28,545 nucleotides of DNA from a virus. A program made the translations under genes and the position numbers. Shown here one piece after another: positions 3,624 to 25,129 of the stretch. The first letter of the stretch is position 1. Each line of letters begins with the position of its first letter. The notes below the pieces were generated by a model. It was not told the origin of the DNA. It saw only the letters and a list, made by a program, of their open reading frames with translations, and made no database searches. The stretch spans positions 1 through 28,545 of IMG/VR virus record IMGVR_UViG_3300025789_000116; one strand, written 5' to 3'.

Positions 3624-3625
3624 TC

Positions 3626-8642: not shown

Positions 8643-9334
8643 AAACATTCAGTATAACTTGTATTGATGCTCTTACATATACTCCTACAATTAAAGCTCT
8701 AAAGAAAACATTAGAAACTTTAAAAGGTTTAGTTGATGTTAAAACTGTTTATTGGTTTAGTGATATCGATTTTCCTGATACGGTAGATTGTAATGTTGTT
8801 TGGGTGAAGATTAACAGATTTAAAAAATTTACTGATGAACTCAATTATATTACACTTAAATTAGTACCACATCTATCAAGAGAAGATTATAATTTAATGG
8901 TACAAGGTGATGGCTTTGCCGTTAATCGTGATGCTTGGGATTCAGAGTTTTTAAACTATGACTATATTGGTGCTCGTTGGCAAGATGGTAGAGTTGGTAA
9001 CGGAGGTTTTAGTTTACGCAGTAAGAAATTACTCGATGCTTTTTTAGATGTAGATATTAAATATCAAACATCACAATTTTCTGAAGATATTATTAATAAT
9101 GTTGAGAATTATGTGTTTGATTATTGTGGTGATAAAGTCATACCAGAAGATAACATCATCTGCAAAGTATATCGACCAATACTAGAACAACAATATGGTA
9201 TCCGTTATGCAGAGGGAGATATAGCGGACAAGTTTAGTATTGAGTATAATATGAGTTCTCCGTGGCTAGGTAAAAGTTTAGGTTTTCATGGAAAACATGG
9301 AATCGCTAGTCATTATGGAATCTCGTTAGATTAA
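8639..9334 (+). CDS. DUF5672-like sugar-cluster protein
   Basis: A 231-residue protein with the features I associate with DUF5672, a family found in surface-polysaccharide loci and presumed to be a GT-A-like glycosyltransferase. They are YNLMVQGDGFAVN (84-96), the following YDYIGARW (107-114) and GNGGFSLRSKKLLD (120-133). The GDG turn occupies the place of a DxD motif. It begins through an ATGA overlap and ends the sugar operon. After it comes a 123-base gap with a weak hairpin and a late promoter, so it is probably the last gene of its transcription unit. Confidence 0.8.
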   Translation: MKTFSITCIDALTYTPTIKALKKTLETLKGLVDVKTVYWFSDIDFPDTVDCNVVWVKINRFKKFTDELNYITLKLVPHLSREDYNLMVQGDGFAVNRDAWDSEFLNYDYIGARWQDGRVGNGGFSLRSKKLLDAFLDVDIKYQTSQFSEDIINNVENYVFDYCGDKVIPEDNIICKVYRPILEQQYGIRYAEGDIADKFSIEYNMSSPWLGKSLGFHGKHGIASHYGISLD

Positions 9335-9457: not shown

Positions 9458-10630
9458 ATGAGGTCTTTTACAAGCTTTCTTACCGAAGAAGTTGAGGGTG
9501 AAAAACTCAAGCATATAACTCATGCTGAAGATAGGCCATTACAACATGGTGTCAAAGGTTTTACTCACGCATATAATGCTATGCAACAAACCCACGACCA
9601 TATTAAATCTGGTGGAAATAGTTCTGCTTTAACCATGAAATATGATGGTTCTCCAGCGGTAGTATTTGGCCATCATCCAGAAAGTGGTAAGTTTTTTGTG
9701 GCAAGTAAATCAGCCTTCAATAAGAATCCAAAGTTGAACTACAACCATAATGATATCGTCAAGAACCATGGACACGCACCTGGACTCGTAGAAAAACTCC
9801 ACTCAGCATTGAATCATCTTAAAAAAATAGCACCTAAAAGTGGTGTATACCAAGGAGATTTGATGTATTCTGAGGGAGATAAAGAAGATACCAAAAAAGG
9901 TGTTTCTTTTACTCCAAATACCATTACCTATACCGCCAAAGGCGACCAAGCAGATAAGATTCGTAAATCCAAGTTAGGTATTATTGTACATACACAATAT
10001 CATGGTAATAACATTCAAACTATGGGTGCCGATCCTCATCCAGATTTACACAACTTTGCACAACATCCTGATGTATGGCACAAGTCTGCAAATCACGACA
10101 CAAAACAAATTCATTATTCTGAAGATCAACAAAATGAATTTAAAAAACATTTAGATGCGGCTAAAAAGATACATGACGAACATAAGAACACCATGTATAA
10201 AGCTACAGAAGCACACCGTGGTGAAGCAAGTCATTTAGAAACATACATTAACCATACTGTTAGAACAGATGAAACTCCTAGTTCTGAAGGATTAAAAAAA
10301 CATATTCAATCCAAATATGATAAGATGGCTTCTAAGTTAAAAACTCCTGCAGCACAAAGCAGAAAGAATACTGAAGCCAGATCGCACATGAATCATATCG
10401 ATGCCAATAAACAACACTATGATAACCTTTTAGCTATGCATAACCATTTACAGATGGCAAAAAATGTGTTAGTATCTACACTAAATCAACATGAAGGTGG
10501 ACTCGAACATCACATTGACGGCAAAAGGACTGGTCCTGAAGGATTTGTTGTTAATCATGCTGGAGAACCTACTAAATTAGTTGATAGAAAAGAGTTTGCA
10601 AAAGCTAATTTGTTAAAGGTGAGGAAATGA
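9458..10630 (+). CDS. Ligase-like nucleotidyltransferase candidate with capsid-targeting-like N-terminus
   Basis: A 390-residue protein. The start at 9458 is chosen over a GTG at 9431 because AGAAGGA lies six bases upstream and the N-terminus then reads MRSFTSFLTEE, like the T4 capsid targeting sequence with an LxE protease site. Motifs resembling the covalent nucleotidyltransferase (DNA/RNA ligase and capping) superfamily appear in order. These are KYDG (61-64, possible nucleophile Lys61), SKSAFNKN (83-90), GDLM (133-136), LGIIVHTQY (173-181) and, after a helical insert, EGFVV (361-365) and KLVDR (373-377). The domain call is inference. Related proteins occur in T4-like aquatic phages as uncharacterised proteins. 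It overlaps the next gene by ATGA. Confidence 0.85.
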   Translation: MRSFTSFLTEEVEGEKLKHITHAEDRPLQHGVKGFTHAYNAMQQTHDHIKSGGNSSALTMKYDGSPAVVFGHHPESGKFFVASKSAFNKNPKLNYNHNDIVKNHGHAPGLVEKLHSALNHLKKIAPKSGVYQGDLMYSEGDKEDTKKGVSFTPNTITYTAKGDQADKIRKSKLGIIVHTQYHGNNIQTMGADPHPDLHNFAQHPDVWHKSANHDTKQIHYSEDQQNEFKKHLDAAKKIHDEHKNTMYKATEAHRGEASHLETYINHTVRTDETPSSEGLKKHIQSKYDKMASKLKTPAAQSRKNTEARSHMNHIDANKQHYDNLLAMHNHLQMAKNVLVSTLNQHEGGLEHHIDGKRTGPEGFVVNHAGEPTKLVDRKEFAKANLLKVRK

Positions 10631-11628
10631 AAAATTTATTTGATGTGATTGGCCGTGAATTAATTATTGAAGCCGAAGGTCGTGGTTTCCTATCTGCATC
10701 AGGAATGGATTCTGAACGACAAGAAAAAAAGTATATTGATCCGCATGTTGGAAGCAAAGAATATACACATGAATTAGGTAAAGCGCATAAAGATATTCCT
10801 GTTGGTTCTAAGTTAAGATTGACAGGCAAAGAAAGAATAGAAGGTAAGTTGCATGTTCGTGCCATTAATGATGCAACAAGAGAAGAACATTTAATACCTG
10901 CATCCAAGATACATAAACCAGGCGAAGCACCAAAGAACAAAGGTTTGGATTATGAAACGCAAACTTTTGAACGGTTCCAAAAAGCAGGCATCACTCCTTT
11001 GAACGCAAAGAGTGCTGGTTCAACTGGCGGTACCGATGTTACCATTGTGAATAAAAAGAAAAAAACGACACATAAAGGTCGTATTAAGAATGCTGAAGAT
11101 TTGATTCACGGTGAAGTAAAAGAAGGCGTAACAGCAGCTATGGGTCAACTAACAATACATCACGATTCAAAACAAGGTTGGCACATTAAAGATGACAGAA
11201 GGAATTTAAGACCAAATTTTGCAAAATCGATTGAAGATGCTGGTATCATCAAAATGATGAATAGTAAATATAATCCAGACAAACACGAAATTCCTACAAC
11301 GGCTAGTGGTCGTGCTAAATCGATTAGTATTAAACATCCTAATTTGGATCCAGCAGTACATTACTTAAATGACCACCATGTTCATGTATTACATGTTGGT
11401 AGTGGTTACGGAACATATAAAGTGGGTCAAAAAGATCCTACAGACCACGGACTACCCGCCATCTCCGGTAAAGGCGAGTTTATAGTTCGTGAAAAACAAG
11501 CAGGTAACAAAAAGGCAAGAACTGTTATGTTCAAACCTGACGGAGTAAAAGGCTTAAATAAAAGCCATGTGAATCTAGATGATGACGAACATTTAGAAAA
11601 TTTTGCAAAAACATTAGGACATAGATGA
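10627..11628 (+). CDS. PD-(D/E)XK-like nuclease candidate, 333 aa
   Basis: A basic protein of 333 residues. Residues 108-174 show a pattern typical of the PD-(D/E)XK nuclease fold: a helix with Glu110 (LDYETQTFERFQKAG), the strand GGTDVTIV with Asp137, HGEVKEG giving Glu163-x-Lys165, and a following Gln174. This would be a metal-dependent DNA-cutting or DNA-binding core. The N-terminus MKNLFDVIGRELIIEAEG differs from the strict capsid-targeting pattern but includes an IxE site (IIE, 13-15). The C-terminal half is lysine- and histidine-rich. It starts at an ATGA overlap with a good AAGGTGAGG ribosome binding site. The nuclease call rests on spacing of residues only. Confidence 0.8.
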   Translation: MKNLFDVIGRELIIEAEGRGFLSASGMDSERQEKKYIDPHVGSKEYTHELGKAHKDIPVGSKLRLTGKERIEGKLHVRAINDATREEHLIPASKIHKPGEAPKNKGLDYETQTFERFQKAGITPLNAKSAGSTGGTDVTIVNKKKKTTHKGRIKNAEDLIHGEVKEGVTAAMGQLTIHHDSKQGWHIKDDRRNLRPNFAKSIEDAGIIKMMNSKYNPDKHEIPTTASGRAKSISIKHPNLDPAVHYLNDHHVHVLHVGSGYGTYKVGQKDPTDHGLPAISGKGEFIVREKQAGNKKARTVMFKPDGVKGLNKSHVNLDDDEHLENFAKTLGHR

Positions 11629-13505
11629 AATCATTCTTACAACTTATCGAAGAACAAGAAGCCACGAAGAAACCCGTGGTGATGGCCTTTGGTCGGATGA
11701 ATCCTCCGACTACAGGGCATTTGAAGTTAATTGATAAAGTTAAATCAACCGCAGAGAAAATGGGTGCAAAGCACACCGTTATACTTTCTCATTCGCAAGA
11801 TTCTAAAAAGAACCCTTTATCTACTGATCAAAAGATTAAACACCTCAAACGGTATTCACCAGGAACACATTTTGAGGCCGCATCTAAGGAACAACCAACA
11901 ATATTGCATCACGCTGCCCGTTTACACGGTGCTGGCCATGACCACTTGGTCGTAGTTGGTGGTTCAGACCGAGTTAAAGAAATGCACGATTTGTTACACA
12001 AATATAATGGTGTAGAAGGTCGACATGGGCATTTTAACTTTAAAAAGATAGAAGTTCGTTCTGCTGGCCATCGTGATCCTGACGCTGAAGGCGCAGAAGG
12101 TATGTCTGGCACCAAAATGAGAGAACACGCAAAAAATAAAGATTTCTCATCCTTCCGTCATGGCGTTCCAGCTCACGTTTCAGACCAACACGCTAAAGAA
12201 CTGATGCATGATGTTCGTAAAGGCATGGGATTAAATGAACAAGTAAACCGTGGTCAATTTAAAGCCATCTTTGTGACTGGTGGACCTGGTTCCGGTAAAG
12301 ATGTAATTATCCGTGAGGCCATTGCCGAATCTAAAGCCGTTGAAATTAACTCGGTACAAGCTTTTGAATATCTTGCTGATAAACAAAAATTATCAGAAAA
12401 ATCTGGTGATTTCCGTAGAGAGTCTATTCGTAATCGTGGTCCTTTGATTATTAATGGCCCAGCAGACGATAAAGATCGTATCCTATACATTAAAGAAGAA
12501 CTAGAAGATTTAGGTTACTCCACCTTAATGATATTTGTTGAGGCTTCCAATAAAGCCAGCCAAGAAAGAAATGCTAAGTTGTCAAGAATGATGGTTGAAT
12601 CCATACGCCAGGACAAATGGTTGAAATCTAAAGAAAACTTCAAGTTGTATAACCAATTGTTTGATAATTTCATCAGTTTTGATAACGATAAATCGATTGA
12701 ATATATAGAAGAAGATATCACAGAAACTTACCACAATATCAATGATTTTATTGATAATAAAGTAACAAATGAGATTGCTTTTGACTGGTTAGAAAAGCAC
12801 AATAGGTTAAATAAAGGTAATATCTTCAAGGAAGAAAAAAATGTTCAAAAAAGTAATCGGTTTCTTAAAATCAAAACTGGCGGCCCCAAAGCAGACGGTC
12901 CAACCTCCATTCCCGCTGACAACAGAGCAGGTAGCTCAAACGCAGACAACGTTAAGTGGGACGCAGGCAAAAGAACAAAAACCTACACCTTTGGCCAAAA
13001 CTCTGGCGTCTACGCCGAGGCCAAAGCGCCCACGCTCACCAAAAGACCAGAGCAAAAAGAGCCCAGCTTCCAGCAAGATAAAGAAAAACAAAAGCTAAAG
13101 AAACGTGGTGATAGAACAGTAAGTCCAGCTCGTGTTGGTCGACCAGATGGCCTTGGTCAAGAATATGACACACGAGCAGGTGGCCAAGGTGCTGCAGCAG
13201 GCGCCGGACTTGGCAATCAGACATATAGCGAAACAATAGAATTCAGTAATGCAAGTCAAAATGGTACAGCAATGCTTGGAGCTAAATTAGAACCAAATCC
13301 GTTGTCTGAGAAAAAACCGTTTAAAAAGTTTAGAACGAATATTAAAGAATATAGTGGATTTCAAAATGATACCGAATCTGGACTCGGTGGAGTATTAGGT
13401 GGCGCAAGCAATAAAGAAGGTATGGATTCATATAAAGATACATCGAGAAACATACAAAACGATTATGGTCTTAAAATAAAAAAGAAAAAAAAACAGGAGA
13501 AATAA
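11625..13505 (+). CDS. Bifunctional NMNAT-like nucleotidyltransferase / P-loop kinase with disordered tail
   Basis: A 626-residue multidomain protein. Residues 1-10 (MKSFLQLIEE) match the T4-like capsid targeting pattern. Residues 17-200 form a cytidylyltransferase-like domain with FGRMNPPTTGH (22-32) and SGTKMRE (161-167), the nucleotide-binding motifs of NMNAT and related enzymes. A P-loop domain follows (FVTGGPGSGKD, 216-226) and extends to about 405. This order resembles NadR, which joins NMN adenylyltransferase and nicotinamide riboside kinase, but the substrate is unknown. Residues 408-626 are low-complexity, with GGQGAAAGAGLG near 527-538. Codons ending in C dominate at 12880-13075, where a second reading frame is open. 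The protein may be packaged in the head, by inference from the N-terminus. Confidence 0.88.
   Translation: MKSFLQLIEEQEATKKPVVMAFGRMNPPTTGHLKLIDKVKSTAEKMGAKHTVILSHSQDSKKNPLSTDQKIKHLKRYSPGTHFEAASKEQPTILHHAARLHGAGHDHLVVVGGSDRVKEMHDLLHKYNGVEGRHGHFNFKKIEVRSAGHRDPDAEGAEGMSGTKMREHAKNKDFSSFRHGVPAHVSDQHAKELMHDVRKGMGLNEQVNRGQFKAIFVTGGPGSGKDVIIREAIAESKAVEINSVQAFEYLADKQKLSEKSGDFRRESIRNRGPLIINGPADDKDRILYIKEELEDLGYSTLMIFVEASNKASQERNAKLSRMMVESIRQDKWLKSKENFKLYNQLFDNFISFDNDKSIEYIEEDITETYHNINDFIDNKVTNEIAFDWLEKHNRLNKGNIFKEEKNVQKSNRFLKIKTGGPKADGPTSIPADNRAGSSNADNVKWDAGKRTKTYTFGQNSGVYAEAKAPTLTKRPEQKEPSFQQDKEKQKLKKRGDRTVSPARVGRPDGLGQEYDTRAGGQGAAAGAGLGNQTYSETIEFSNASQNGTAMLGAKLEPNPLSEKKPFKKFRTNIKEYSGFQNDTESGLGGVLGGASNKEGMDSYKDTSRNIQNDYGLKIKKKKKQEK
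12828..12834 (+). promoter_or_regulatory. Ribosome binding site for candidate overprinted gene
   Basis: AAGGAAG, with its AAGGA core ending eight bases before the ATG at 12841. It lies in the reading frame of the NMNAT/kinase gene, where it encodes part of FKEEKN, so it could be fortuitous. Good strength and spacing support internal initiation. Confidence 0.4.
12841..13098 (+). CDS. Candidate overprinted small basic protein, 85 aa
   Basis: An ORF entirely inside the NMNAT/kinase gene in the +1 frame. It starts with MFKKVIGFLKSKLA, a possible amphipathic helix, continues as a Pro/Thr/Ala/Gln-rich segment (about residues 15-58) and ends in a very basic tail (RPKRPRSPKDQSKK and on). Evidence for coding: an AAGGA site eight bases before the ATG, and a sharp local excess of C at third positions of the host frame over 12880-13075, which are second positions of this frame. 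The same signature appears in the Rz/Rz1 overlap at 20904-21101. I know no homologue. It could also be a compositional island without translation. Confidence 0.4.
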   Translation: MFKKVIGFLKSKLAAPKQTVQPPFPLTTEQVAQTQTTLSGTQAKEQKPTPLAKTLASTPRPKRPRSPKDQSKKSPASSKIKKNKS

Positions 13506-13507
13506 AA

Positions 13508-15400
13508 ATGTTTGGTCCGAAAAAAATATCTCAATCTTTGATTGATGCAGTTCTAAAGATAACCGAAGAAAAACCTGAAGTTACTCGTGCACCGCAGTTA
13601 TTAGACGAGGCAGATAAAGTTCCTACACCAACAGGAATGAAAGTGTATGGCAGCCGTTATGGAAATTCTGCCAAAGCTCGTAGAGACCAAACTAAGGCAG
13701 CTGTTGACACACTAAAAGGTCCTAAGGACAAAGAATTAATAAAAGATGATGAGATAGATGAAACTGGCTTTCATGCAGCTGCTCACGGTGCCAAGAAAGC
13801 AGGTCAAACTCATTTTGAGTTTCAAGGAAAAAAATATCCTGTTACAGCAAAATCTCATACTGAAGCAATTGAAGAAGAAGGCGACTGTGTAACTAAACCA
13901 GAAGCAAAGAAAATTGCTAAGAAAGAAGTTAGTCACCACAATGTAACAATGCACAAAGGTCAAAAGAATACCGTTAAAGAAGATGAAGAAGTTAAATCTT
14001 TCAAAGACCGTTTACTAGAGCGTGAAATGACTTCCGCCGAATCTCGTAAAAGAGAAAAGATTGTTATGTCCATGAAAGACAAACAAGAATACTTCAAAAA
14101 GAAATATGGTAAGCGTTGGAAAGAAGTAATGTACGCTACTGCTACCAAACAAGCAATGAAAGAAGATATCAATTCATCGGAAGATAATCAAGATGAATTA
14201 GACGAAGCATCATATACAACAAAAAGAAATCCTGATGGGTCAGTAAAATCTAGTGCAGTCGACCAATTCATTAAAGCTGGTGGTAAAGTTGATAAGTCAT
14301 ATTATACAACAGGTGGTAAGTCATCGAAAACTATAAGAAATCCAGACGGTTCAATTAAAAAGAGTGCGACTGCTGATTTTAAGTATCATAAAGAGGAAGT
14401 TAAGAAGTCTGATGTTCCTGCTTTCTTACGCAAAATGCGTGGCGATAAACCATTGACAATGAAAGATGTTAAGTCTGGCGATAAAGATTCTATTTCACAC
14501 AAAGATAATCTTGCTAAAGCTCGTAACGAAGAAATTGAATTATCTGAAAAGAATGAATCTCATACACATGCTGCTCATTATGAAAATGACAAGGGTGAGT
14601 GGACCGGTATGAATTTGTTTGTTGCTAAAGATGACGAAGATGCTATTCGCCAAGCACACGCAAAATGTAAAGATGGCTGCCGTTTATCTCGTGTTGAGCG
14701 TCATGTTGCAGTAAAAGAAGAAGTTCAATCATTAGATGAAATTGAAGCCTCTATCGAGAAACATAGTAGTGCAGATGCGACAACAGACATGTTGCGTGGT
14801 CGAGTAGTTGGTGGAACCGATAAAGAAAAAGGCGGTGCTGATAATTTCCGTAAATGGAAAATCAAACTTGCTGGTGATGGTGAAAACCGTCCAGGCAACC
14901 ACAATGATAATGTTACTGAACCTAATATGGACAATAAAGGTGAAACTCCTGAACGTCAAAAAATTACAACCAATCCAGGTCCAGTAGATATCAAATTTGA
15001 CGATAAATTGGGTAACACACCTCCACAAAAATATTTTTCAAAAGAAAAAGAACTTAGGAGTGAAGAAGTAAAGGGTGAATTAAAACATATTCGTTCAAAA
15101 GAAAAAGAGATGCGCAATAAAGAAGTTTCTGATTTTGCTTCTCATGCAAAAGCTTCTCAGAAAGAGAGTGTTGAAGAAGGTAAAAATCCACAAGTAGATG
15201 CTGCTAATGGTGCTCAACCTGATTTTGCAACTGAAAAAGTTATTGCTGGTACTCCTGGTTGGAAGAAAGTTGCTAAGAATGTAACAGACAAATCTGGTGC
15301 AGTTCACACACCAATGAGCCGTGCTAAAGACTTAGCTCGTCAAGCATTTAAAAAAGTTAAGAATGAAATGTTAGGTAAAGCTCCAGGAAACAACGGATAA
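13508..15400 (+). CDS. Long charged modular protein, probable virion internal or core protein, 630 aa
   Basis: A lysine/glutamate-rich protein without an enzyme motif. The N-terminus MFGPKKISQSLIDAVLKITE belongs, from memory, to a family common in T4-like aquatic phages. Modules are strung together: GMKVYGSRYGNSAKARRDQTK (about 43-63) near the start, GFHAAAHGAKKAG (about 86-98), EYFKKKYGKRWKEVMYATAT (about 196-215), two copies of RNPDGS[VI]K (from residues 240 and 277), HYENDKGEWTGMNLF, and a 19-residue repeat of SKEKE[LM]R. LxE or IxE sites, the T4 gp21 cleavage pattern, separate many modules (for example ITE at 18-20, LLDEAD, IELSEK, SLDEIE). A strong AGGAG lies upstream. The inferred role is a packaged or core protein cut during head maturation. 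Confidence 0.85.
   Translation: MFGPKKISQSLIDAVLKITEEKPEVTRAPQLLDEADKVPTPTGMKVYGSRYGNSAKARRDQTKAAVDTLKGPKDKELIKDDEIDETGFHAAAHGAKKAGQTHFEFQGKKYPVTAKSHTEAIEEEGDCVTKPEAKKIAKKEVSHHNVTMHKGQKNTVKEDEEVKSFKDRLLEREMTSAESRKREKIVMSMKDKQEYFKKKYGKRWKEVMYATATKQAMKEDINSSEDNQDELDEASYTTKRNPDGSVKSSAVDQFIKAGGKVDKSYYTTGGKSSKTIRNPDGSIKKSATADFKYHKEEVKKSDVPAFLRKMRGDKPLTMKDVKSGDKDSISHKDNLAKARNEEIELSEKNESHTHAAHYENDKGEWTGMNLFVAKDDEDAIRQAHAKCKDGCRLSRVERHVAVKEEVQSLDEIEASIEKHSSADATTDMLRGRVVGGTDKEKGGADNFRKWKIKLAGDGENRPGNHNDNVTEPNMDNKGETPERQKITTNPGPVDIKFDDKLGNTPPQKYFSKEKELRSEEVKGELKHIRSKEKEMRNKEVSDFASHAKASQKESVEEGKNPQVDAANGAQPDFATEKVIAGTPGWKKVAKNVTDKSGAVHTPMSRAKDLARQAFKKVKNEMLGKAPGNNG
14225..14363 (+). repeat. Imperfect protein repeat RNPDGS[VI]K
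   Basis: Two copies of a short coding repeat, one starting at 14225 (RNPDGSVKSSA) and one at 14336 (RNPDGSIKKSA), 37 codons apart. The nucleotides have diverged more than the residues, so the motif seems to be kept at protein level. Confidence 0.6.
15037..15108 (+). repeat. 15-bp direct repeat, 57-bp period
   Basis: TTCAAAAGAAAAAGA occurs at 15037-15051 and again at 15094-15108, in the same frame, encoding SKEKE twice within a 19-residue repeat unit (SKEKELRSEEV, SKEKEMRNKEV). This looks like a local duplication in the charged modular protein. Confidence 0.75.
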
Positions 15401-15405
15401 TTCAT

Positions 15406-16995
15406 ATGAAAAAGTTATCAGACACATTAAAACGTATTGTCAAGAATCCTGCTGGTAAAGAAACTTTTGGAACTGATCCAAAAGATCCTTGGTCACCAAA
15501 AGCAGGCCTTTCAGAAGGTTCACTTGAAACTTACTTAAAATCAAAAGGAATTAATCCTGAGTATGTAAGTAAGGACCAAAAAATTGCTCATGCTAAATCC
15601 ATGGCGTATTTGAAATGGAAATCTGAACACCAGTTTGAAGAAGTTGTTGTTGAAGAACCCATACATATTTCAGGTAAGAGTGGTGGAACCGCATCACAAA
15701 AATCTTCAATAGAAAAAAAACAACATTCTGATAAAATAATTAAAACACCTCGTGGTCCTGGTTTGCATAGGCAAGAGGGCAGTCAAATGACACAGTTGAC
15801 ACCAGAATCAACTGCCTTGGATAAGTTTCGTGCTGCTTCTGCTGAAAGAGAAAAGAAATACGATGAAATTGAAAAGAATCGTAAATCAGATGCAGCTCAA
15901 GGTAAAGAGAATATGAAAAGTGCCATTGATCGTTTAGAAAAGCACATGAAAAAAGAGGATATGAATCCTGATTCACCTAAAGCTGCTGCAGTTTCAAAAG
16001 AATTAAAAAATATCACAAAGCGTGGAGTTATTATGAAACCCACAAATGAAGAACAGATTGATGAAAATGAACACCTCAAAAAACTCCAAGCAGATATAGA
16101 TAAGTCTGCAGAACAAGAAGTTGCTCATGCTAAGAAACATGGCTGGAAAGTTCAAAAACAAACTTATGGTAGAACATATACACATCCAAAGCATGGTCAT
16201 ATAGATATGAATCGTTATGGCGAGTGGCAACATAGACCACAGTCAGGAATCATGCGTGGTAAAGGTAACTTGATTGCTCATGGAGAATTTAAAGATTTAG
16301 ATAAACACATATCTTCATTGAAAGAAGAAGTGGAATCTATTGATGAACTCAACAAAGATACATTAAAATCTTATAGAGATAAATCAATGGCTAGTATCAA
16401 GAATGCTCGTAAGAATCGTGATGCTGCTGAACCAGGTAAAAACATGTCCAAAGGTTTTGCCGATTTATTTGCAAAGTCTGATTCGATTGCTAAAAAACGT
16501 GCCAAAGGATTAGCTGGGTATCTACAACGCAAACATGGCATGAAACCTGGTTATTCAGATGAACGCAAAACAACTTCTGAAGCAGTTGGTGATAAAGAAG
16601 CTGCCGATCATGCAGATGGTTTAACTACTGCTGTTGACCAGATGCAAGCAGAAACAAAGCGTCAAATGTCTAAGTCTGCTCGTATGATTAAGGCATTATA
16701 TAAGAAACATAAAATGGTCAAAGAAGATTTGTATGACCATGAAAAAGAAGATAAATCAGTAGCTACCTATGGCAAGAAACCAAAGGAAGAAAAAGCTGAT
16801 AAAGATGCAAGCAAAGGTGAAAACAAACCACAAGCAGCATTAACCTTGTCTGGAGGTACAACATTGACTGGCAACAAAAGAGATACAGTCGAAATTGATC
16901 CAATGATGAGGAATCGTCCAGGTCAACCTGATCCAACAAAGAAGGATGACAAGAAAAAAGACGATAAAAAAGAAGATAAGAAGAAAGATAAATAG
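15406..16995 (+). CDS. Long charged modular protein, probable virion internal or core protein, 529 aa
   Basis: A second lysine-rich modular protein. The N-terminus MKKLSDTLKRIVKNPAGKE is followed by a small helical module with KGINPEYVSKDQKIAHAKSM (about 48-67), long coiled-coil-like segments, a KHGWKVQKQTYGRTY/HPKHGHIDMNRYG module, and EEVESIDELNKDTLKSYRDK (about 307-326). The last of these is, from memory, a recurring unit in T4-like aquatic phage proteins. IxE/LxE sites (QIDENE, SIDELN) again sit at module edges. The tail is almost purely Lys/Asp/Glu. No Shine-Dalgarno of note lies before the ATG at 15406. No enzyme motif is visible. Shared modules with the preceding protein suggest a common role in the head interior. 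Confidence 0.85.
   Translation: MKKLSDTLKRIVKNPAGKETFGTDPKDPWSPKAGLSEGSLETYLKSKGINPEYVSKDQKIAHAKSMAYLKWKSEHQFEEVVVEEPIHISGKSGGTASQKSSIEKKQHSDKIIKTPRGPGLHRQEGSQMTQLTPESTALDKFRAASAEREKKYDEIEKNRKSDAAQGKENMKSAIDRLEKHMKKEDMNPDSPKAAAVSKELKNITKRGVIMKPTNEEQIDENEHLKKLQADIDKSAEQEVAHAKKHGWKVQKQTYGRTYTHPKHGHIDMNRYGEWQHRPQSGIMRGKGNLIAHGEFKDLDKHISSLKEEVESIDELNKDTLKSYRDKSMASIKNARKNRDAAEPGKNMSKGFADLFAKSDSIAKKRAKGLAGYLQRKHGMKPGYSDERKTTSEAVGDKEAADHADGLTTAVDQMQAETKRQMSKSARMIKALYKKHKMVKEDLYDHEKEDKSVATYGKKPKEEKADKDASKGENKPQAALTLSGGTTLTGNKRDTVEIDPMMRNRPGQPDPTKKDDKKKDDKKEDKKKDK
16939..16995 (+). repeat. Lys/Asp-rich low-complexity tail
   Basis: A run of short purine-rich units (AAGA, AAGGATGAC, AAAGACGAT and variants) encodes the KKDDKKKDDKKEDKKKDK tail of the 529-residue protein. 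It is likely to vary in length between relatives. Confidence 0.6.
16987..16994 (+). promoter_or_regulatory. Possible variant late promoter GATAAATA
   Basis: GATAAATA differs by one base from the T4 late consensus and lies 34 bases before the start of the probable virion protein at 17028, overlapping the previous stop codon. A strongly expressed structural gene would be a natural client. The one mismatch and AT-rich context keep this tentative. Confidence 0.3.
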
Positions 16996-17015
16996 TAATA
17001 TAACCAAGGCTAATC

Positions 17016-17021
17016 AAGGAG
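17016..17021 (+). promoter_or_regulatory. Strong ribosome binding site
   Basis: AAGGAG, six bases before the ATG at 17028, is among the best Shine-Dalgarno matches in the window and suggests high expression of the downstream gene. Confidence 0.7.
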
Positions 17022-17027
17022 AAAAAA

Positions 17028-17651
17028 ATGCCAACATGGTCAAATATTGATACACCAGCATCAAAACCAAAGTTTGATGTTGAGCGTCAAGTAAGAGAAT
17101 ATGTACGTTTAAGTACTGCTAATACAACACCTGCAGGTAATACTGTAGTTACATTGGTGTACAACGATGGTGCACAGAACAACGTAGCTAACGTAGGTGT
17201 TGCTGTAGGACAATATGTTTATTTTGGTGCTGGTCTTGCCGGCAACGGATATCCAGGATTCTTCAGTTCAAATAACACAGTTGCGGCAATCAACGGAAAC
17301 AATGTTACTTTGACAGTTGCTACGTTTAACACTACTGCTCCAGGAACAGTTATTGAGTTCGACAAAGCAATTGCTTATAACGTTAACAAACCTGTAGAAG
17401 TTACCTACAATCCAGACACAATTTTGATGACTGCAACTCGTTGTGCAAATACTGCTACAAACTTGCCAACAGGTATTTCTGCTAATCAGATTGGTAACAT
17501 GGTTCAGGGTTGGAATCACGTTCAAAAGAAAACCAATAATGATGGTACAGTTCGTTACATTAAGGAGTGCATCGTTGCTTTAGCTAATCCTGTTGCTTCT
17601 AATGTATCTTCTGCTAATTGCAGTTTTGGTAACTTTATTGCTGGACTGTAA
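17028..17651 (+). CDS. Probable virion structural or decoration protein, 207 aa
   Basis: A 207-residue protein rich in Asn, Thr, Val, Ala and Gly with alternating beta-type patterns and few lysines, unlike the charged proteins before it. The start MPTWSNIDTPASKPKF resembles, from memory, small structural proteins of T4-like aquatic phages that begin with a TD..AxKPKF segment and end with a GW..x..x..G..RY.E... segment. Here the C-terminal part has MVQGWNHVQKKTN and RYIKECIVAL (about 159-187). A strong AAGGAG site and a near-consensus late promoter point to high late expression. It may be a capsid decoration or adhesin-like beta protein; the exact role is unknown. Confidence 0.8.
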   Translation: MPTWSNIDTPASKPKFDVERQVREYVRLSTANTTPAGNTVVTLVYNDGAQNNVANVGVAVGQYVYFGAGLAGNGYPGFFSSNNTVAAINGNNVTLTVATFNTTAPGTVIEFDKAIAYNVNKPVEVTYNPDTILMTATRCANTATNLPTGISANQIGNMVQGWNHVQKKTNNDGTVRYIKECIVALANPVASNVSSANCSFGNFIAGL

Positions 17652-17676
17652 TAACACATTATAAAGGTTTTTGATT

Positions 17677-18621
17677 ATGAAGGTGTTGTTTCATACACAC
17701 ACATTGAATTATCGTGGTACAACAGTAGCAATTTTAGATTATGCTCGTTACAACCAAGAAGTATTAGGTAATGAAAGCGTTGTTTCTTATTGGGCTGATG
17801 GTCCAGTAGGAAACGATGCTGGTAACGAAGCTCCAATGATAGAAAAGTTCAAAACGGAATTTGAATTACGACCAGCAACAGGTGGTGATTTAAATTCCGT
17901 TTGTCATGATATAGATGTAGCATACTTTATTCGGTCGGGAGAGGTAGAACCTCTTCCTAATGTTAAGACCGCAGTTCACGCTGTATTTGGACATAGAACA
18001 CCACATGGAGATTCATATGCTTATATCTCCGAATGGTTGGCAGAACATAGGTGCAAAGATTTAAATCTTCCTTATGTTCCACACATAGTTAATTTGCCGA
18101 AGCCTAATGCAGATTTTAGGCAACGATTAGGCATCAGCAAAGATAAAATTGTAGTAGGTAGATTAGGTGGTTATACCACTTTTGATATTGGCTGGGTACA
18201 TTCTGCCGTACGGAGAGTATTAGAATCGGATCCTAGATTTGTATTTGTGTTCTTAAATACTGCTAGATTCATGGATCACCCCAATATCATCTATTTGGAT
18301 CCAATCCATAACATGCAGGAGAAGTCAAACTGCATTGAGATGTGTGATGCCTTTCTCCATGCCAGATCGATTGGAGAGAGTTTTGGTTTGTCGGTTTGTG
18401 AACCATTATTTCACAATAAACCTACATTTGCTTTTAATGGTGGAGATGATAAACACCATATGATGGTATTAGATGGAACAGGTCTACTATATAATGATGA
18501 GAATGACCTGGTTACGAAATTGTTAAATTTGAATTCTTTTAATGGAGATTATCACTCATTAGTTGCCAAATTTAATCCTACCACGGTCATGGGTAAGTTT
18601 AAAGAAGTGTTTTTAACATAA
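17677..18621 (+). CDS. GT4-like glycosyltransferase
   Basis: A 314-residue GT-B glycosyltransferase. The N-terminal half starts MKVLFHTHTLNYRGTTVAIL. The C-terminal half has VVGRLGGYTTFD (159-170), a FVFVFLNTA strand (188-196) and ARSIGESFGLSVCEPL (229-244), whose E234 and E242 match the E-x7-E donor-binding motif of families GT4/GT5. The ATG at 17677 is preferred over a TTG two codons earlier. It lies between a probable virion protein and the capsid-targeting-like genes, about 8 kb from the main sugar cluster. It may therefore act on a neighbouring virion protein, but that is a guess from position. Confidence 0.85.
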   Translation: MKVLFHTHTLNYRGTTVAILDYARYNQEVLGNESVVSYWADGPVGNDAGNEAPMIEKFKTEFELRPATGGDLNSVCHDIDVAYFIRSGEVEPLPNVKTAVHAVFGHRTPHGDSYAYISEWLAEHRCKDLNLPYVPHIVNLPKPNADFRQRLGISKDKIVVGRLGGYTTFDIGWVHSAVRRVLESDPRFVFVFLNTARFMDHPNIIYLDPIHNMQEKSNCIEMCDAFLHARSIGESFGLSVCEPLFHNKPTFAFNGGDDKHHMMVLDGTGLLYNDENDLVTKLLNLNSFNGDYHSLVAKFNPTTVMGKFKEVFLT

Positions 18622-18624
18622 ATA
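18617..18624 (+). promoter_or_regulatory. Possible variant late promoter CATAAATA
   Basis: CATAAATA differs at one position from the T4 late consensus and spans the stop of the GT4 gene, ten bases before the ATG at 18634. Transcription from it would start almost at the start codon, giving no room for a ribosome binding site, so it would mainly serve the genes further on. Confidence 0.2.
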
Positions 18625-18633
18625 GGCCAATGG

Positions 18634-19020
18634 ATGCTTGATGATTTGAATGACGACAATTTCATGATATATGCAATGAAGTGTTATAATGCACCTAATT
18701 GTATTATGTCGGAATTTGAGAACGATATTAAAAGAACCAAATATCTAAAACGATTATTTCGTAGATACAAGGTTACAAAGAGTTTAAAAGAACGATTGAT
18801 ATTAAATCATATCATTCTATTGAATAATGTTTTTGGCCATCAGGCCGTAGCAAGAATTTTATTTTATAGAATTGATGAACGAGATTATGATGTATTAAAG
18901 ACGTTTTTGACGTATCTTAATATTATGCCGGATGTAATTTACGGTATCAGAGGAAAAACAATACACACCGCTGATATTCCCTTAGACGAAAATATTGTAG
19001 AGATATTGGTAAAAATATGA
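18634..19020 (+). CDS. Conserved small T4-like phage protein, 128 aa
   Basis: A 128-residue, mainly helical protein of unknown function. The segments YAMKCYNAPNC (13-23), KRTKYLKRLFRRY (about 33-45), RLILNHIILLNNVFG (about 54-68) and FLTYLNIMPD (about 91-100) match, from memory, a family kept in many T4-like aquatic phages close to the capsid-targeting-like genes. There is no signal peptide or catalytic motif. Its stop overlaps the next start as ATGA. Confidence 0.82.
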   Translation: MLDDLNDDNFMIYAMKCYNAPNCIMSEFENDIKRTKYLKRLFRRYKVTKSLKERLILNHIILLNNVFGHQAVARILFYRIDERDYDVLKTFLTYLNIMPDVIYGIRGKTIHTADIPLDENIVEILVKI

Positions 19021-19538
19021 TAACATTTAAACAATACTTAAACGAAGTCGCCAAGCCCACAGGAGATTTAAAGAAAGCCTGCTGGAAAGGATACACTGCT
19101 GTTGGCACTAAAGAAAAAAATGGTCGTACTGTTCCTAATTGTGTTCCAGAAGAAGTTGAACTCGAAGAACTCTTTGACATCATCGAAGAAGTTGTTATGG
19201 ACATGGCCGAAGAATGGAATGTTGACGAAGAAACCATTTGGGAAAATCTCGAAGATGTGTCAGACGAAGAATTATTTGAATCTGCTGCATGGCGCCGTAA
19301 AGAAGGCAAAAGTGCTTCTGGTGGTTTAAATCGTAAAGGCATTATGTCTTATCGTAGAGAAAATCCAGGTTCTAAACTAAAGATGGCAGTTACAGGTAAA
19401 GTAAAACCTGGATCTAAAGCAGCTAAACGCAGAAAATCATTTTGTGCTCGTATGTCTGGCATGAAAGGTGCAATGAAGAAACCTAATGGTGAACCTACAC
19501 GCAAAGCTTTAGCATTAAGAAAGTGGAAATGCAGATGA
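19017..19538 (+). CDS. Capsid-targeting-like protein with basic DUF6321-like C-terminus, 173 aa
   Basis: Three parts are visible. Residues 1-10, MITFKQYLNE, match the T4-like capsid targeting pattern and end in an LxE protease site. Residues 17-43 contain KKACWKGYTAVGTKEKNGR and a PNCVP turn, a small module that recurs in aquatic phage proteins. Residues 45-89 are very acidic. After an LFE site (86-88) the protein becomes strongly basic and resembles DUF6321 (AAWRRKEGK, GGLNRKGIMSYRRENPGSK, KKPNGEPTRKALALRKW). The basic half could bind DNA. The acidic-then-basic layout with a protease-type site at the border suggests cleavage during head maturation. This is inference; no function is established. 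Confidence 0.85.
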   Translation: MITFKQYLNEVAKPTGDLKKACWKGYTAVGTKEKNGRTVPNCVPEEVELEELFDIIEEVVMDMAEEWNVDEETIWENLEDVSDEELFESAAWRRKEGKSASGGLNRKGIMSYRRENPGSKLKMAVTGKVKPGSKAAKRRKSFCARMSGMKGAMKKPNGEPTRKALALRKWKCR

Positions 19539-19744
19539 AATCATTTAAACGATATATCGATGAAATGGGTGCTGGTGCCGCAGGTGGCGGTAGTGCAGGT
19601 CCAACCAATGTTGTTGGTGGTGGCGCAATTGCTGGTGCAGGTGTCGGTCCTCAAGGCGAACCGGGTGTTGATTTAAGAAAACGTAAGAAGAAAGTTGCAG
19701 ACCCACGCATGCCAATGGGTATGGGTAAACGAAAGGACTTTTAA
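19535..19744 (+). CDS. Small Gly-rich capsid-targeting-like protein, 69 aa
   Basis: A 69-residue protein starting MKSFKRYIDEMG, a close match to the T4 capsid targeting sequence with an IxE site (IDE, 8-10). The rest is a Gly/Ala/Val-rich linker including PTNVVGGGAIAGAGVGPQGE (about 23-42), then a basic RKRKKK patch and a Met/Gly-rich end. The ATG at 19535 overlaps the previous stop; an in-frame ATG four codons earlier would spoil the N-terminal motif. Similar small proteins occur in T4-like aquatic phages as hypothetical proteins. After cleavage it would be a short basic internal peptide. Confidence 0.8.
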   Translation: MKSFKRYIDEMGAGAAGGGSAGPTNVVGGGAIAGAGVGPQGEPGVDLRKRKKKVADPRMPMGMGKRKDF

Positions 19745-21854: not shown

Positions 21855-22865
21855 ATGAGTATATACATTGATAGAGCATTTTTGCTTCGGGTATCCCCCA
21901 AACTCCCACGATTCACGCAGAAGAAGGAAGACCTTTATAACTTCCGTTGTCCTCTTTGCGGTGATTCTCAAAAGAATAAAACTAAGGCACGAGGATTTGT
22001 TTTTCGTAAGAAAGATAATTACTTCTATATGTGCCATAATTGTGGTGTATCTACCACATTTTATAACTTTCTAGATAAAGTCGATCCAACATTAACCAAA
22101 GAGTATGCTTTAGAACGGTATAAAAATGGAACACAAAATGCCAACACACCAACCCCTAAATTTGAACAAACTAAAGCGGAAAAACCGACCTTTCGAAAAA
22201 AATTATCATTGGAATCAATTGACTCGTTATCAGAAGAACATTTTGCTAAGGCATATGTTCAATCGAGAAGAATTCCCAAAGATTTTTATTCGCAATTATA
22301 CTTTGCGCCAGATTTCCGTAAATTTATCCAAGAATTTAATGTCGAACAAGAAGGCCTTAAAGAAAACGACCAAAGGCTCATTATTCCATTCTATGATGCG
22401 GAGAAAAACCTCGTTGCGGTACAAGGGAGGGCTCTCGGTGAGTCCAAACTCCGTTATATCACAATCAAGGTTAATGAAGATGTTTCCAAAGTCTATGGAT
22501 TAGATAGGATCGACCAGGACAAGATGATCTATGTGATGGAAGGTCCTATTGACAGCATGTTTATTGACAATGCTGTAGCCACTGCGGATTCTAACTTGGA
22601 ATCAATCATAAGTATATTTGACAAATCTAAAGTTACTTTGGTATTTGATAATGAACCAAGAAATAAAGAGATTGTCAAAAAAATTGAACACGCCATCGAC
22701 AACCATTTTAATATTGTTATTTGGCCAGAATTTATTGAAGAAAAAGATATCAATGATATGATCCTGTCCGGTTTTTCGCAGGATGAAATACAAGATATTA
22801 TACATAAAAATACCTTTCTCAATTTGAGAGCAAAAATGGAATTCATTAAGTGGAAAAAGATATAA
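21855..22865 (+). CDS. 61: DNA primase, T4 gp61-type
   Basis: A 336-residue primase of the T4 gp61 kind, which makes RNA primers for lagging-strand synthesis together with the gp41-like helicase. The zinc-binding domain has CPLCGD (32-37) and CHNCG (60-64), so Cys32, Cys35, Cys60 and Cys63 are the likely ligands. The TOPRIM-like catalytic part shows IYVMEGPIDSMF (225-236) with Glu229 and Asp233, and LVFDNEPRNKE (262-272) with Asp265 and Glu267. Length is close to T4 gp61. A sigma70-like promoter sits directly upstream, with a very short or absent leader. Its 3-prime end overlaps the next gene by 16 bases. Confidence 0.93.
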   Translation: MSIYIDRAFLLRVSPKLPRFTQKKEDLYNFRCPLCGDSQKNKTKARGFVFRKKDNYFYMCHNCGVSTTFYNFLDKVDPTLTKEYALERYKNGTQNANTPTPKFEQTKAEKPTFRKKLSLESIDSLSEEHFAKAYVQSRRIPKDFYSQLYFAPDFRKFIQEFNVEQEGLKENDQRLIIPFYDAEKNLVAVQGRALGESKLRYITIKVNEDVSKVYGLDRIDQDKMIYVMEGPIDSMFIDNAVATADSNLESIISIFDKSKVTLVFDNEPRNKEIVKKIEHAIDNHFNIVIWPEFIEEKDINDMILSGFSQDEIQDIIHKNTFLNLRAKMEFIKWKKI

Positions 22866-23320
22866 TTGAGTGGGTAAAACGAATTTCCAAAAAGCGTAAT
22901 GAACTTGGTGGATTTGCTATTTGTCCTTTTGCGCAAAAGGCACTTAAAGAAAAAAAAATATTTTGGTCATTCATAGGTTATGAACCATCAGCTTACATAA
23001 GTAGGTATATGGAGATGATGAATGAAGATTATGAAGTGGTGCTATTTTATAATCTGAAAAAAAACTTAACCAATGAGGACTGTATTGAATTAATCAACAA
23101 TCTAAACAAAAAATTCCCCAATATAGTATTTTTAAAAGACCATCCTGATAATCCTGGATTTATCAATGGCGTCAACACCAGTAATGGTGAATATCCGGTA
23201 ATTATTGCTCAACCGAAAGGAAAACTAAAAGATGCTAGGCTTGCTTTAGAGAAAACAAAATATTATGATGTATGGAGTGAAGAATATAAAAAAGAAATTT
23301 TGAGTTACGGCAACGAATAA
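22850..23320 (+). CDS. Conserved hypothetical protein, 156 aa
   Basis: A 156-residue protein starting at a GTG inside the primase gene; no ATG start is available before residue 34. The segment GGFAICPFAQKAL (20-32) with a CPF turn resembles a motif shared by some uncharacterised phage and bacterial proteins (DUF1415-like in flavour), and a late PVIIAQPKGKL strand follows. Cys25 is the only obvious reactive residue. It sits between primase and ribonucleotide reductase, a typical place for a small DNA- or nucleotide-metabolism accessory protein. Function is unknown, and the ribosome binding site is weak. Confidence 0.7.
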   Translation: MEKDIIEWVKRISKKRNELGGFAICPFAQKALKEKKIFWSFIGYEPSAYISRYMEMMNEDYEVVLFYNLKKNLTNEDCIELINNLNKKFPNIVFLKDHPDNPGFINGVNTSNGEYPVIIAQPKGKLKDARLALEKTKYYDVWSEEYKKEILSYGNE

Positions 23321-23340
23321 CAATAAGAAAGCGAAACAGC

Positions 23341-25128
23341 ATGGAATACCTAGGTATTAATATAGATTTAGAAAGAGATAAACTGTTTGATGAATTAGGC
23401 ATCAGACGATTAAAAGAAAGTTACATGAAAGAAGATGAAGAAAGTCCACAACACAGATTTGCATTCGTCAGCAAAACGTTCAGTTCCAATCCAGAGCATG
23501 CCCAAAGATTATATGATTATAGCAGTCAACATTGGCTTTCTTATTCTACTCCCATTTTATCTTTTGGTCGTAGTAAGCGTGGCATGCCTATATCATGCTT
23601 TCTCAATTATATCGAAGATACTGCGGAGGGTTTAGTTGATAACCTATCAGAAACTAACTGGCTCTCTATGCTTGGTGGCGGTGTTGGTATTGGTTTTGGC
23701 ATTCGGTCTGCCGATGATAAGTCTACTGGCGTTATGCCACATCTTAAAATTTATGATGCGAGTTCTCTTGCTTATCGCCAAGGTCGCACTCGGCGTGGCT
23801 CTTATGCCGCTTATCTTAGTATATCTCATCCTGATATCATTCCGTTCCTCGAAATGAGAAAGCCAACAGGCGACCCCAATGTTCGTTGCCTGAATCTGCA
23901 TCACGGTATTAATATCACCGATGACTTCATGCACATACTTGAAAAATGTATGTTGGATCCTGAAGCAGATGATTCTTGGGAACTAAAAGATCCACACACA
24001 GGTGAAGTTCGTGAAGTTGTATCCGCAAAACATCTTTGGCAACAAATTTTAGAATTGCGTATGCATACAGGTGAACCATACATTCACTACATTGATACAA
24101 GCAATCGTGAACTGCCAAAATTTCTAAGTGAAAAAGGTTTGAGAATTCACCAATCAAATCTTTGTTCTGAAATTATATTACCAACCAATGAACAACGCAC
24201 AGCAGTATGTTGTTTATCTTCTTTGAATTTGGAGAATTATGATGAATGGAAAAACAATAAGTTATTTCTCAAAGATGTTGCTGAAATGCTTGATAACGTG
24301 CTCAATTACTTTATTGCTAACGCTCCCGATGCTATCTCTCGTGCTAGATATTCAGCTGAGCGAGAGCGTTCCATTGGCATTGGTGCTCTCGGCTTTCATG
24401 CTTATCTACAGCGTAACGGAATTGCTTTTGAAGGAGTTATGGCCAAAGTTGCAAACAATAGAATTTTCAAAACTATTCGAGAGGGATTAGACGATGCCAA
24501 TTATGAATTGGGTAAAGAAAGAGGTGAAGCCCCTGATGCAATTGGTACTGGTCGTAGGTTTAGTCATGTTATGGCTGTTGCTCCCAATGCTTCTTCTTCC
24601 ATTATCATGGGGAATACTAGTCCTTCTATTGAACCTTATCGTGCCAACGCTTATCGGCAGGATACTCTTTCGGGTTCTTTCTTAAATAAGAATCGTTGGT
24701 TGGATAAAATCATCAAGGAGAAAACAAATGGTGATGAACAAGATTACGCTGATGCTTGGAGCTCTATTATTGCTAACGATGGGAGCTGTCAGCACCTTGA
24801 TATACTCTCTGATGCAGAACGAGATACTTTCAAAACCTCAATGGAAATCGATCAAAGGTGGGTTATTGAATTGGCTGCAGACCGTCAAGCATATATTGAC
24901 CAAGCGCAATCATTAAATCTGTTCTTTAGACCAGATGCACACATCAAATATATTCATGCTATTCATTTCATGGCATGGAAAAAAGGATTGAAAACTTTAT
25001 ACTATTGCCGTTCAGAGAAGATTGGTAAAGCCGATAAAGTATCTAAACGTATTGAACGCCAAGTTATTAAAGAACTTGATATGGAGCAAATTGCTCAAGG
25101 TAACGACTGCATAGCTTGCGAAGGATAA
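23341..25128 (+). CDS. nrdA: Ribonucleotide reductase large subunit, class I (NrdA)
   Basis: A 595-residue catalytic subunit that reduces ribonucleoside diphosphates to deoxy forms for phage DNA synthesis. Active-site residues are in place: Cys86 in GMPISCFL, Asn273-Cys275-Glu277 in SNLCSEI, the partner cysteine in AVCCLSS (290-291), the radical-transfer tyrosines in LYYCRSEK, and a C-terminal CIAC redox pair. It is much shorter than E. coli or T4 NrdA (about 750 residues) because the N-terminal ATP-cone is absent, so feedback inhibition by dATP is probably lost. The gene lies two bases before nrdB, forming a clear operon. Confidence 0.95.
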   Translation: MEYLGINIDLERDKLFDELGIRRLKESYMKEDEESPQHRFAFVSKTFSSNPEHAQRLYDYSSQHWLSYSTPILSFGRSKRGMPISCFLNYIEDTAEGLVDNLSETNWLSMLGGGVGIGFGIRSADDKSTGVMPHLKIYDASSLAYRQGRTRRGSYAAYLSISHPDIIPFLEMRKPTGDPNVRCLNLHHGINITDDFMHILEKCMLDPEADDSWELKDPHTGEVREVVSAKHLWQQILELRMHTGEPYIHYIDTSNRELPKFLSEKGLRIHQSNLCSEIILPTNEQRTAVCCLSSLNLENYDEWKNNKLFLKDVAEMLDNVLNYFIANAPDAISRARYSAERERSIGIGALGFHAYLQRNGIAFEGVMAKVANNRIFKTIREGLDDANYELGKERGEAPDAIGTGRRFSHVMAVAPNASSSIIMGNTSPSIEPYRANAYRQDTLSGSFLNKNRWLDKIIKEKTNGDEQDYADAWSSIIANDGSCQHLDILSDAERDTFKTSMEIDQRWVIELAADRQAYIDQAQSLNLFFRPDAHIKYIHAIHFMAWKKGLKTLYYCRSEKIGKADKVSKRIERQVIKELDMEQIAQGNDCIACEG

Positions 25129-25129
25129 A

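Follow-up and report, generated by a model that had tools for sequence, protein, structure and literature searches.

A fragment of 28,545 bases from an uncultured T4-like phage of an aquatic environment (IMG/VR record IMGVR_UViG_3300025789_000116), hereafter called the window, carries 37 genes, among them a block of genes several of whose products begin with a short peptide resembling the one that loads internal proteins into the head of phage T4. It is quite likely that this T4-type capsid targeting sequence loads the block proteins into the prohead, that gp21 removes the peptide, and that the cargo then enters the host together with the phage DNA. The capsid-targeting reading had been put forward in an original prediction made from the sequence of the window, and it now draws support from the conservation of peptide positions 4, 7, 8 and 10, from the attachment of the peptide to unrelated protein families, from the presence of gp21 in complete relatives, and from tagged homologs in virions.

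A shared N-terminal peptide in the window

Genes are named here by their first position in the window. As originally described, four N-termini fit the pattern M-x-[ST]-F-x-x-[FYL]-[IL]-x-E, namely those of the products of genes 9458 (MRSFTSFLTE), 11625 (MKSFLQLIEE), 19017 (MITFKQYLNE) and 19535 (MKSFKRYIDE). An AAGGA-type ribosome site lies just upstream of the 9458 ATG, and the 19535 start overlaps the preceding stop as ATGA. Only these 4 of the 37 window genes match the strict pattern, where 0.0018 matches are expected from amino-acid composition. The corresponding binomial probability for 4/37 (P ~3e-13, or 2e-12 using N-terminal composition) overstates the case because the pattern was derived from these same genes, and independent tests were therefore run in relatives. 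Gene 10627, to which a looser version of the peptide had been ascribed, does have a degenerate N-terminus (MKNLFDVIGRELIIEA), and the full pattern is present in four of its homologs (MKTFRSFLLE, MISFKSFLLE, MKSFRGFLIE and MKTFKTYLSE).

The conserved residues are those that act in T4

Residue frequencies among hits chosen by the motif were not taken as evidence of conservation, because selection itself fixes those residues; sets selected by the body of the protein were used instead. The family of the 9458 protein, DUF6267, was represented by 43 members picked by whole-protein tblastn score. Glu10 is present in 43/43 of these, Leu or Ile at position 8 in 42/43, Phe or Tyr at position 7 in 40/43, and Phe or Tyr at position 4 in 38/43, while positions 2, 3, 5, 6, 9 and 11-15 are variable. 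The four conserved positions coincide with those mapped experimentally in T4, where, according to suppressor studies of the internal protein IPIII, targeting depends on residues 4 and 7 and gp21 processing on residues 8 and 10 (PMC9026906). The features of a T4-type capsid targeting sequence are thus found together: aromatic residues at positions 4 and 7, a hydrophobic residue at 8 and Glu at 10, all in the N-terminal 10-19 residues.

The T4 protein gp23 is cut by gp21 at its FLTE site. This protein includes FGSFLTEAEIGG (T4 genome record), and its FLTE corresponds to residues 7-10 of the 9458 protein, whose SFLTE forms part of the gp23 sequence FGSFLTE-AEIGG. The original prediction had also cited MKTYQEFIAEA as the start of T4 internal proteins, including IPI and IPIII. 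This holds for IPII and IPIII, whereas IPI starts MKTFKEFTSTTTPVSTITEA (T4 genome record).

A shared start could in principle reflect translational control at the RNA level, such as a RegA-type site at the start codon, rather than a protein signal. RegA-type repressors act at the start codon in T4, the signal studied here is likewise at the start codon, and RegA is present in these phages. However, the conserved positions of the peptide use varied synonymous codons (TCN or AGY for Ser, TTA or CTN for Leu), and therefore selection acts on the protein. Conservation is also spaced by amino acid instead of running through contiguous bases. We reject this explanation, which codon variation largely refutes and which we regard as extremely improbable.

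The peptide occurs almost only at gene starts

Related loci were gathered by means of the bodies of two block proteins. Among the 152 loci obtained, the pattern M.[STN][FY]..[FYLI][ILVM].E matches 199 times within 40 residues of the start of an open reading frame (ORF), compared with 6 matches at 15,333 same-strand internal Met codons. In five long relatives and the pelagiphage HTVC008M, each genome has 0-2 pattern matches, nearly all of them in this block. The pattern might have been equally common at the N-termini of unrelated early genes; the genome-wide motif search of relatives, together with the S-CREM2 comparison described below, indicates that it is not. A position-weight matrix built from strict hits was kept for genome-wide specificity only, because it missed forms shifted by one residue (MRFRQFIIEA) and gave T4 IPI a low score. 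IMG/VR was also scanned with a degenerate DNA version of the peptide pattern; of the 103 matches read, 102 fell at ORF starts and 0 lay inside a longer ORF. Within the NMNAT-like family, the peptide stands ahead of the domain in 83/120 distinct proteins, versus a match at 1/1,312 internal Met residues.

The same peptide also precedes proteins that are otherwise unrelated, as is expected of a T4-type capsid targeting sequence. The IMG/VR matches and a first set together comprise 294 peptide-bearing proteins, which fall into 37 groups without detected similarity behind the peptide; the first set alone gave 23 clusters, and the first clustering merged three families via fusion proteins. Among the groups whose domains can be recognised are DUF6267, NMNAT-like, DUF6321, adenylate kinase, SAM lyase, phage lysozyme and ADP-ribosyltransferase. 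Where DUF6267 and NMNAT are fused, a single peptide is present, at the front of the fusion. One aquatic T4-like contig has an ADP-ribosyltransferase domain behind the peptide (L118:2819-3520; PF03496, E=4e-12). This is the enzyme class of T4 Alt.

A gp21-type protease accompanies the peptide in relatives

Cutting of the peptide would call for a gp21-type prohead protease, and a search for one in relatives found it in 6/6 complete isolates (HTVC008M, S-CREM2, S-CRM01, Melnitz-3, C48C1 and DLP_6). The peptide is present in all six in complete or partial form, with partial forms only in HTVC008M. A Peptidase_S77 (gp21) gene is also present in 5/6 long relatives, and one contig, G012, holds the block and gp21 together. 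Among 14 further tagged contigs of 25-96 kb gp21 occurs in 6, a count that is uninformative for fragments. The podovirus HTVC022P has no gp21, and its DUF6321 protein has no peptide. Both gp23 and gp21 of relatives have [FL][LIV]xE sites near their N-termini, and their gp23 propeptide region holds comparable sites, such as LLNE-AIP and YLNE-AGS (YLNE-AGSP in G004 gp23).

Tagged homologs are reported from virions

NMNAT-like homologs of the 11625 protein have been reported from virions of S-CREM2 (PMC10665884), S-SZBM1 (PMC9146016), S-SCSM1 (PMC9602691) and S-SM1 (PMC3037559). Their N-termini are MKNFSSFLTEA, MRFRQFIIEA, MKSFLQFLKEA and MKKFSAFLNEA, respectively. A kinase from S-CRM01 virions is cited in the S-CREM2 report (PMC10665884), and the kinase-like gene of the S-CRM01 block starts MISFDQFLSEK. 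In S-SZBM1 the DUF6267 protein lacks the peptide (MAKNTHLEHLED) and is not among the 30 virion proteins, whereas the adjoining tagged NMNAT-like protein was detected. The syntenic block of S-SCSM1 has seven genes flagged as encoding virion proteins, and the peptide is on the NMNAT-like one only.

Purified virions of S-CREM2 yielded 52 proteins (PMC10665884 Table 3), and our comparison covered 200 genes of this phage, 42 with products detected by mass spectrometry and 158 others. The anchored motif is present in 3/42 detected proteins (SAM lyase gp6, APH-like kinase gp14 and NMNAT-like gp154) versus 0/158 others (p=0.009). A looser, unanchored core adds gp13 and gp12 and gives 6/42 versus 1/158 (p=4e-4), a figure to be read in the knowledge that this core was chosen after gp12 and gp13 had been seen and that the comparison as a whole covers one phage with small numbers.

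Several further points count against packaging by the peptide. The S-CREM2 authors note that enzymes of this kind might be contaminants carried along in purification (PMC10665884). Some block proteins are detected in virions and carry no peptide (the products of S-SCSM1 genes 89, 90, 92, 93, 95 and 97, and S-CREM2 gp155, 156 and 160), which implies other routes into the virion or a structural role for some block proteins. DUF6267 proteins lack the peptide in some cyanophages (S-SZBM1, P-TIM40 and S-CRM01), so that the function of this family cannot always need packaging. Similarly, no convincing gene with the strict pattern was found in HTVC008M, whose block homologs include several with partial forms (MKSFKDFQNVNE, MKTFTDFSTD). 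In the window's own record, a 28.5-kb fragment, gp21 was not found. Finally, cutting after Glu10, which we hold to be likely, is deduced from the [LIV]xE site.

Could the peptide instead be a docking tag for some other assembly, such as a sliding clamp or a replication or repair complex, with the proteins acting in the cell on nucleic acid and NAD metabolism and reaching virion preparations as contamination? The block does sit between replication genes, its cargo includes ligase-like, NMNAT-like and kinase-like proteins, and contamination is the very concern raised in the S-CREM2 report. Nevertheless, the virion lists of the same phages generally omit replication proteins while including tagged ones, and a replication tag would be unexpected on a lysozyme, an ADP-ribosyltransferase or a SAM lyase. 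Such a tag would also leave unexplained the invariance of Glu10 and the match to the gp21 site. We regard this alternative as quite improbable.

A proposed route from prohead to host

Because these enzymes share the head-loading peptide of T4, they probably enter the head alongside the DNA and reach the host when infection begins. Late in infection, aromatic residues 4 and 7 would dock the block proteins onto the scaffold core of the prohead, and the docked proteins would be enclosed while the shell forms. The gp21-type prohead protease of the phage would then cut after the [LIV]-x-E site (residues 8-10), freeing mature enzymes inside the head, where these would remain beside the packaged DNA until both enter the next host as infection starts. 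Proposed as cargo are an enzyme resembling RNA and DNA ligases, a fusion of NMNAT and kinase with the potential to make NAD+, a protein that may be nuclease-like, and small basic proteins. The steps differ in their standing. Packaging through this peptide is highly likely, the presence of homologs in virions being known, and delivery of the cargo to the host is fairly probable. A role early in infection, in NAD+ supply, RNA or DNA end joining, or defence evasion, is plausible by analogy with established phage biology.

Another possibility accepts packaging and treats the peptide merely as a cleavable anchor, such that the proteins are core or scaffold components left inside the head, like the remnants of T4 gp67, and nothing is delivered. 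The T4 internal proteins do belong to the core of the prohead, with IPII and IPIII given as non-essential (PMC9026906). Moreover, the DUF6321 gene of HTVC022P lies between the scaffold and capsid genes, and the 13508, 15406, 19017 and 19535 proteins have no recognised enzyme domain. Several cargo families, however, contain recognisable enzyme domains and differ freely from phage to phage, as would be expected of delivered effectors more than of parts of the core. We therefore consider the anchor-only explanation unlikely and favor delivery of the cargo.

Proteins of the block

The features of the block and of its flank are collected in Table 1.

Table 1. Peptides, block proteins and flanking genes, with positions in the window.
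Feature	Position	Strand	Basis or remark
Targeting sequence MRSFTSFLTE	9458..9487	+	Strict pattern; predicted gp21 cut after E10 (codon 9485-9487)
DUF6267 protein, 390 residues, cargo; predicted ligase-superfamily nucleotidyltransferase	9458..10630	+	PF19782, E=5e-98
Basic protein, 333 residues, degenerate peptide (MKNLFDVIGRELIIE), possible cut after E15 (codon 10669-10671)	10627..11628	+	Homolog N-termini
Targeting sequence MKSFLQLIEE	11625..11654	+	Strict pattern
NMNAT/cytidyltransferase-like domain (~14-203), P-loop kinase-like domain (~205-396) and low-complexity tail, cargo	11625..13505	+	phrog_3041, E=9e-65; phrog_12810, E=2e-16
Lys/Glu-rich protein, 630 residues, possible internal head protein	13508..15400	+	Suggested by position and composition
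Basic protein, 529 residues, net charge +26, possible internal head protein	15406..16995	+	Suggested by charge and block position
Virion-structural candidate, 207 residues, family N-terminus MxxWGxTD...KP	17028..17651	+	Suggested by resemblance
Targeting sequence MITFKQYLNE	19017..19046	+	Strict pattern; YLNE also in G004 gp23 propeptide region
CWxGY-motif and DUF6321 protein, 173 residues, basic, cargo	19017..19538	+	PF19846, E=1e-21
Targeting sequence MKSFKRYIDE	19535..19564	+	Strict pattern; homologs MKTFKEFVTE, MKTFKQFNED
Gly-rich protein, 69 residues, basic tail, cargo	19535..19744	+	phrog_3286, E=1.5e-4
Synteny marker: gp61-type primase (21855), then ribonucleotide reductase large and small subunits (23341, 25130)	21855..26116	+	phrog_47 DNA primase, E=1e-84

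The ligase-like domain proposed for the 9458 protein is borne out by structural comparison. Its AlphaFold model has a predicted local distance difference test (pLDDT) score of 90.5, with residues 1-14 disordered, and the 50 matches shown for this model are RNA and DNA ligases, with RNA ligases best and DNA ligases following. The top match is a Naegleria RNA ligase (Z 9.1, root-mean-square deviation 3.7, 184 residues), and T4 RNA ligase 2 scores Z 7.9. Foldseek alone gave weak ligase hits only (E 0.04). Invariant in the 43 DUF6267 sequences are K61-x-D63-G64, assigned to motif I (KxDG), as well as E361-G362 and K373, assigned to motifs IV and V; all these assignments follow the order of the residues in the sequence. 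The protein thus combines the fold and the motifs of the covalent nucleotidyltransferase (RNA/DNA ligase) superfamily, and a Z of about 9 at 10% identity supports a ligase-type nucleotidyltransferase fold, not any particular activity.

Family models likewise agree with the NMNAT-like part and the P-loop kinase-like part of the predicted 11625 fusion. The first domain scores 26.3 bits with PF01467 (cut-off 21) and 29.6 bits with TIGR00125 (cut-off 27.7), and it contains the (H/T)xGH signature as FGRMNPPTTGH, which places it among the CTP_transf_like/NMNAT proteins. A phmmer search of the kinase-like domain against the PDB returned marginal adenylate kinase hits only. Assignment of the whole protein as NadR was rejected, the TIGR01526 score of 14.4 bits being far under the 341-bit cut-off.

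The remaining block proteins are less readily classified. The 10627 family has the invariant residues D137, E163-x-K165 and Q174, and D137...E163-x-K165 would fit a possible PD-(D/E)XK nuclease core; the structure model (pLDDT 70.6) is too weak for a fold call, and an SH3-like N-terminal domain was the only part matched. The 13508 protein occupies the same block position as S-SCSM1 gene 92, which is flagged as a virion protein, and it shares with its relatives a different N-terminus, MFxKxKVSQSMIDAVNKVLGE (window 13508-13570), ending in an LxE site. To judge from this sequence, targeting propeptides may come in a second type, of which this N-terminus would be an example. Relatives of the 17028 protein start MPTWGNTD... 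or MPLWGNTD..., and the products of S-SCSM1 gene 95 and S-SZBM1_136, whose N-termini are similar, are virion proteins. Proteins of the CWxGY type are also found in virions, as S-CREM2 gp160 and S-SZBM1 139.

Gene neighborhood and related sequences

The gene order of the window resembles that of aquatic T4-like phages (Kyanoviridae), including S-SM1, S-SM2, S-SZBM1, S-SCSM1 and HTVC008M. In all five, as in the window, the block lies directly upstream of the primase gene, and homologous blocks are flanked by replication genes, with gp41/mazG on one side and gp61/nrdAB on the other. The putative nrdA and nrdB genes of the window were assigned by order and sequence. Ahead of the block, about 10 genes (window 2074-9334) resemble those for glycosyltransferases, a nucleotide-sugar epimerase and similar enzymes, and a glycosyltransferase-like gene (17677) lies inside it.

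Several other sequences associated with the peptide were encountered. A short repeated module, LGLxSDGHGSYxDxxGxxVAxT, follows the peptide in several different cargoes (L222:7704-10313, which is S-CREM2 gp12; L005:10761-11987; L213:10379-10930). The annotation of gp12 as Cas9 is not accepted here, since the protein has no Pfam match and the label looks doubtful. A second possible ligase-like family, containing EKTDGS and unrelated to DUF6267 by Pfam, occurs behind the peptide in L275:6248-7192 and L284. In phage C48C1 (L215:7998-9407), the annotated start of a cytidyltransferase lies too far downstream, and translation from a GTG at 7998, which is in frame and overlaps the stop before it, yields the targeting peptide MIKNFSQYLLEEE.

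Some small virion-associated proteins start like the mature N-terminus of gp23 (GFTG...GPxAGxDP; L221:38121-38303, L004:18342-19235, L302, L231 and L282), and in some uncultured phages the targeting peptide precedes this stretch. A DUF3008 protein flagged as a virion protein (S-SCSM1 gene 93, L221:36626-36832) ends in KKRTFKEFLEYIE, and its relative in S-SM2 (gene 163, L005:13404-13877) ends in KTLKEFLENI. These C-termini look like the targeting peptide, and the C-terminal processing of T4 Alt may be compared.

Implications

Virion proteomes of cyanophages repeatedly list non-structural enzymes, and their authors have been unable to separate cargo from contamination. Packaging by the peptide would explain these repeated finds in purified particles. 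A short cleavable tag would offer both a mechanism and a sequence-based prediction of the proteins injected by marine or freshwater T4-like phages, such that metagenomes would allow a listing of the effectors that act first when abundant aquatic bacteria are infected. DUF6267, DUF6321 and other families of unknown function could then be named as packaged proteins with testable roles.

We lean slightly toward a broader view, in which the targeting sequence of aquatic T4-like phages (Kyanoviridae and kin) serves as an all-purpose export tag. It would mark a large and exchangeable repertoire of enzymes, which would travel into the host with the genome and work ahead of any phage gene expression. 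That repertoire would span ligase-like, NMNAT-kinase, adenylate kinase, SAM lyase, protein kinase, ADP-ribosyltransferase, lysozyme and nuclease-like proteins, among others, and its tasks might include restoring NAD+, blocking defence based on methylation and repairing RNA that has been cut. The sequence by itself, through the motif, would then predict which proteins an uncultured phage injects.

Parts of this picture are established. Earlier work has described the T4 targeting sequence and its attachment to foreign proteins, and has suggested that T4-like phages carry varied proteins by means of it (PMC9026906); the presence of NMNAT-like proteins, kinases and a SAM hydrolase in cyanophage virions is already known. 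What seems new is that the tag is present on those virion enzymes, across many families and environments, and that it forecasts virion content. A limited literature search found no paper joining capsid targeting sequences with cyanophage virion enzymes, and absence from such a search is not proof.

Comparison with known systems

One close likeness is to the virion-associated NMNAT, kinase and SAM hydrolase proteins of S-CREM2, S-SCSM1, S-SZBM1, S-SM1 and S-CRM01, which are homologous proteins or belong to a homologous block and have the peptide on them; the published reports, so far as consulted, give no packaging mechanism and do not mention the peptide. The domain order of the 11625 protein, a nucleotidyltransferase followed by a P-loop kinase, recalls that of NadR (NMN adenylyltransferase and ribosylnicotinamide kinase), from which it differs by family score. 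Inner-body and ejection proteins of the phiKZ-like phage SPN3US also have N-terminal propeptides that are cut after glutamate by a prohead protease. Those propeptides differ in being mostly >100 residues long and in their S/A-x-E motif (PMC5694885, PMC9026906).

T4 Alt is a head-borne enzyme that gp21 cleaves and the phage ejects; it has a counterpart in the tagged ADP-ribosyltransferase domain of locus L118. Alt differs in that its cleavage follows ITE-6 and takes place at the C-terminus as well (PMC5694885), and the window has no ADP-ribosyltransferase domain. According to a review of marine T4-like phages, in which internal proteins go unmentioned, alt is missing from cyanomyoviruses (PMC2984593). 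In the searches made, no window protein matched the T4 internal proteins. The block resembles IPI, IPII and IPIII in its 10-residue N-terminal peptide with Phe or Tyr at positions 4 and 7, Ile or Leu at 8 and Glu at 10, in its basic proteins, and in the gp21-type protease of the phage group. Whereas the T4 internal proteins are small and have no known enzyme activity, the cargo here is mostly enzyme-like and is encoded in a conserved block beside gp61 and nrdA.

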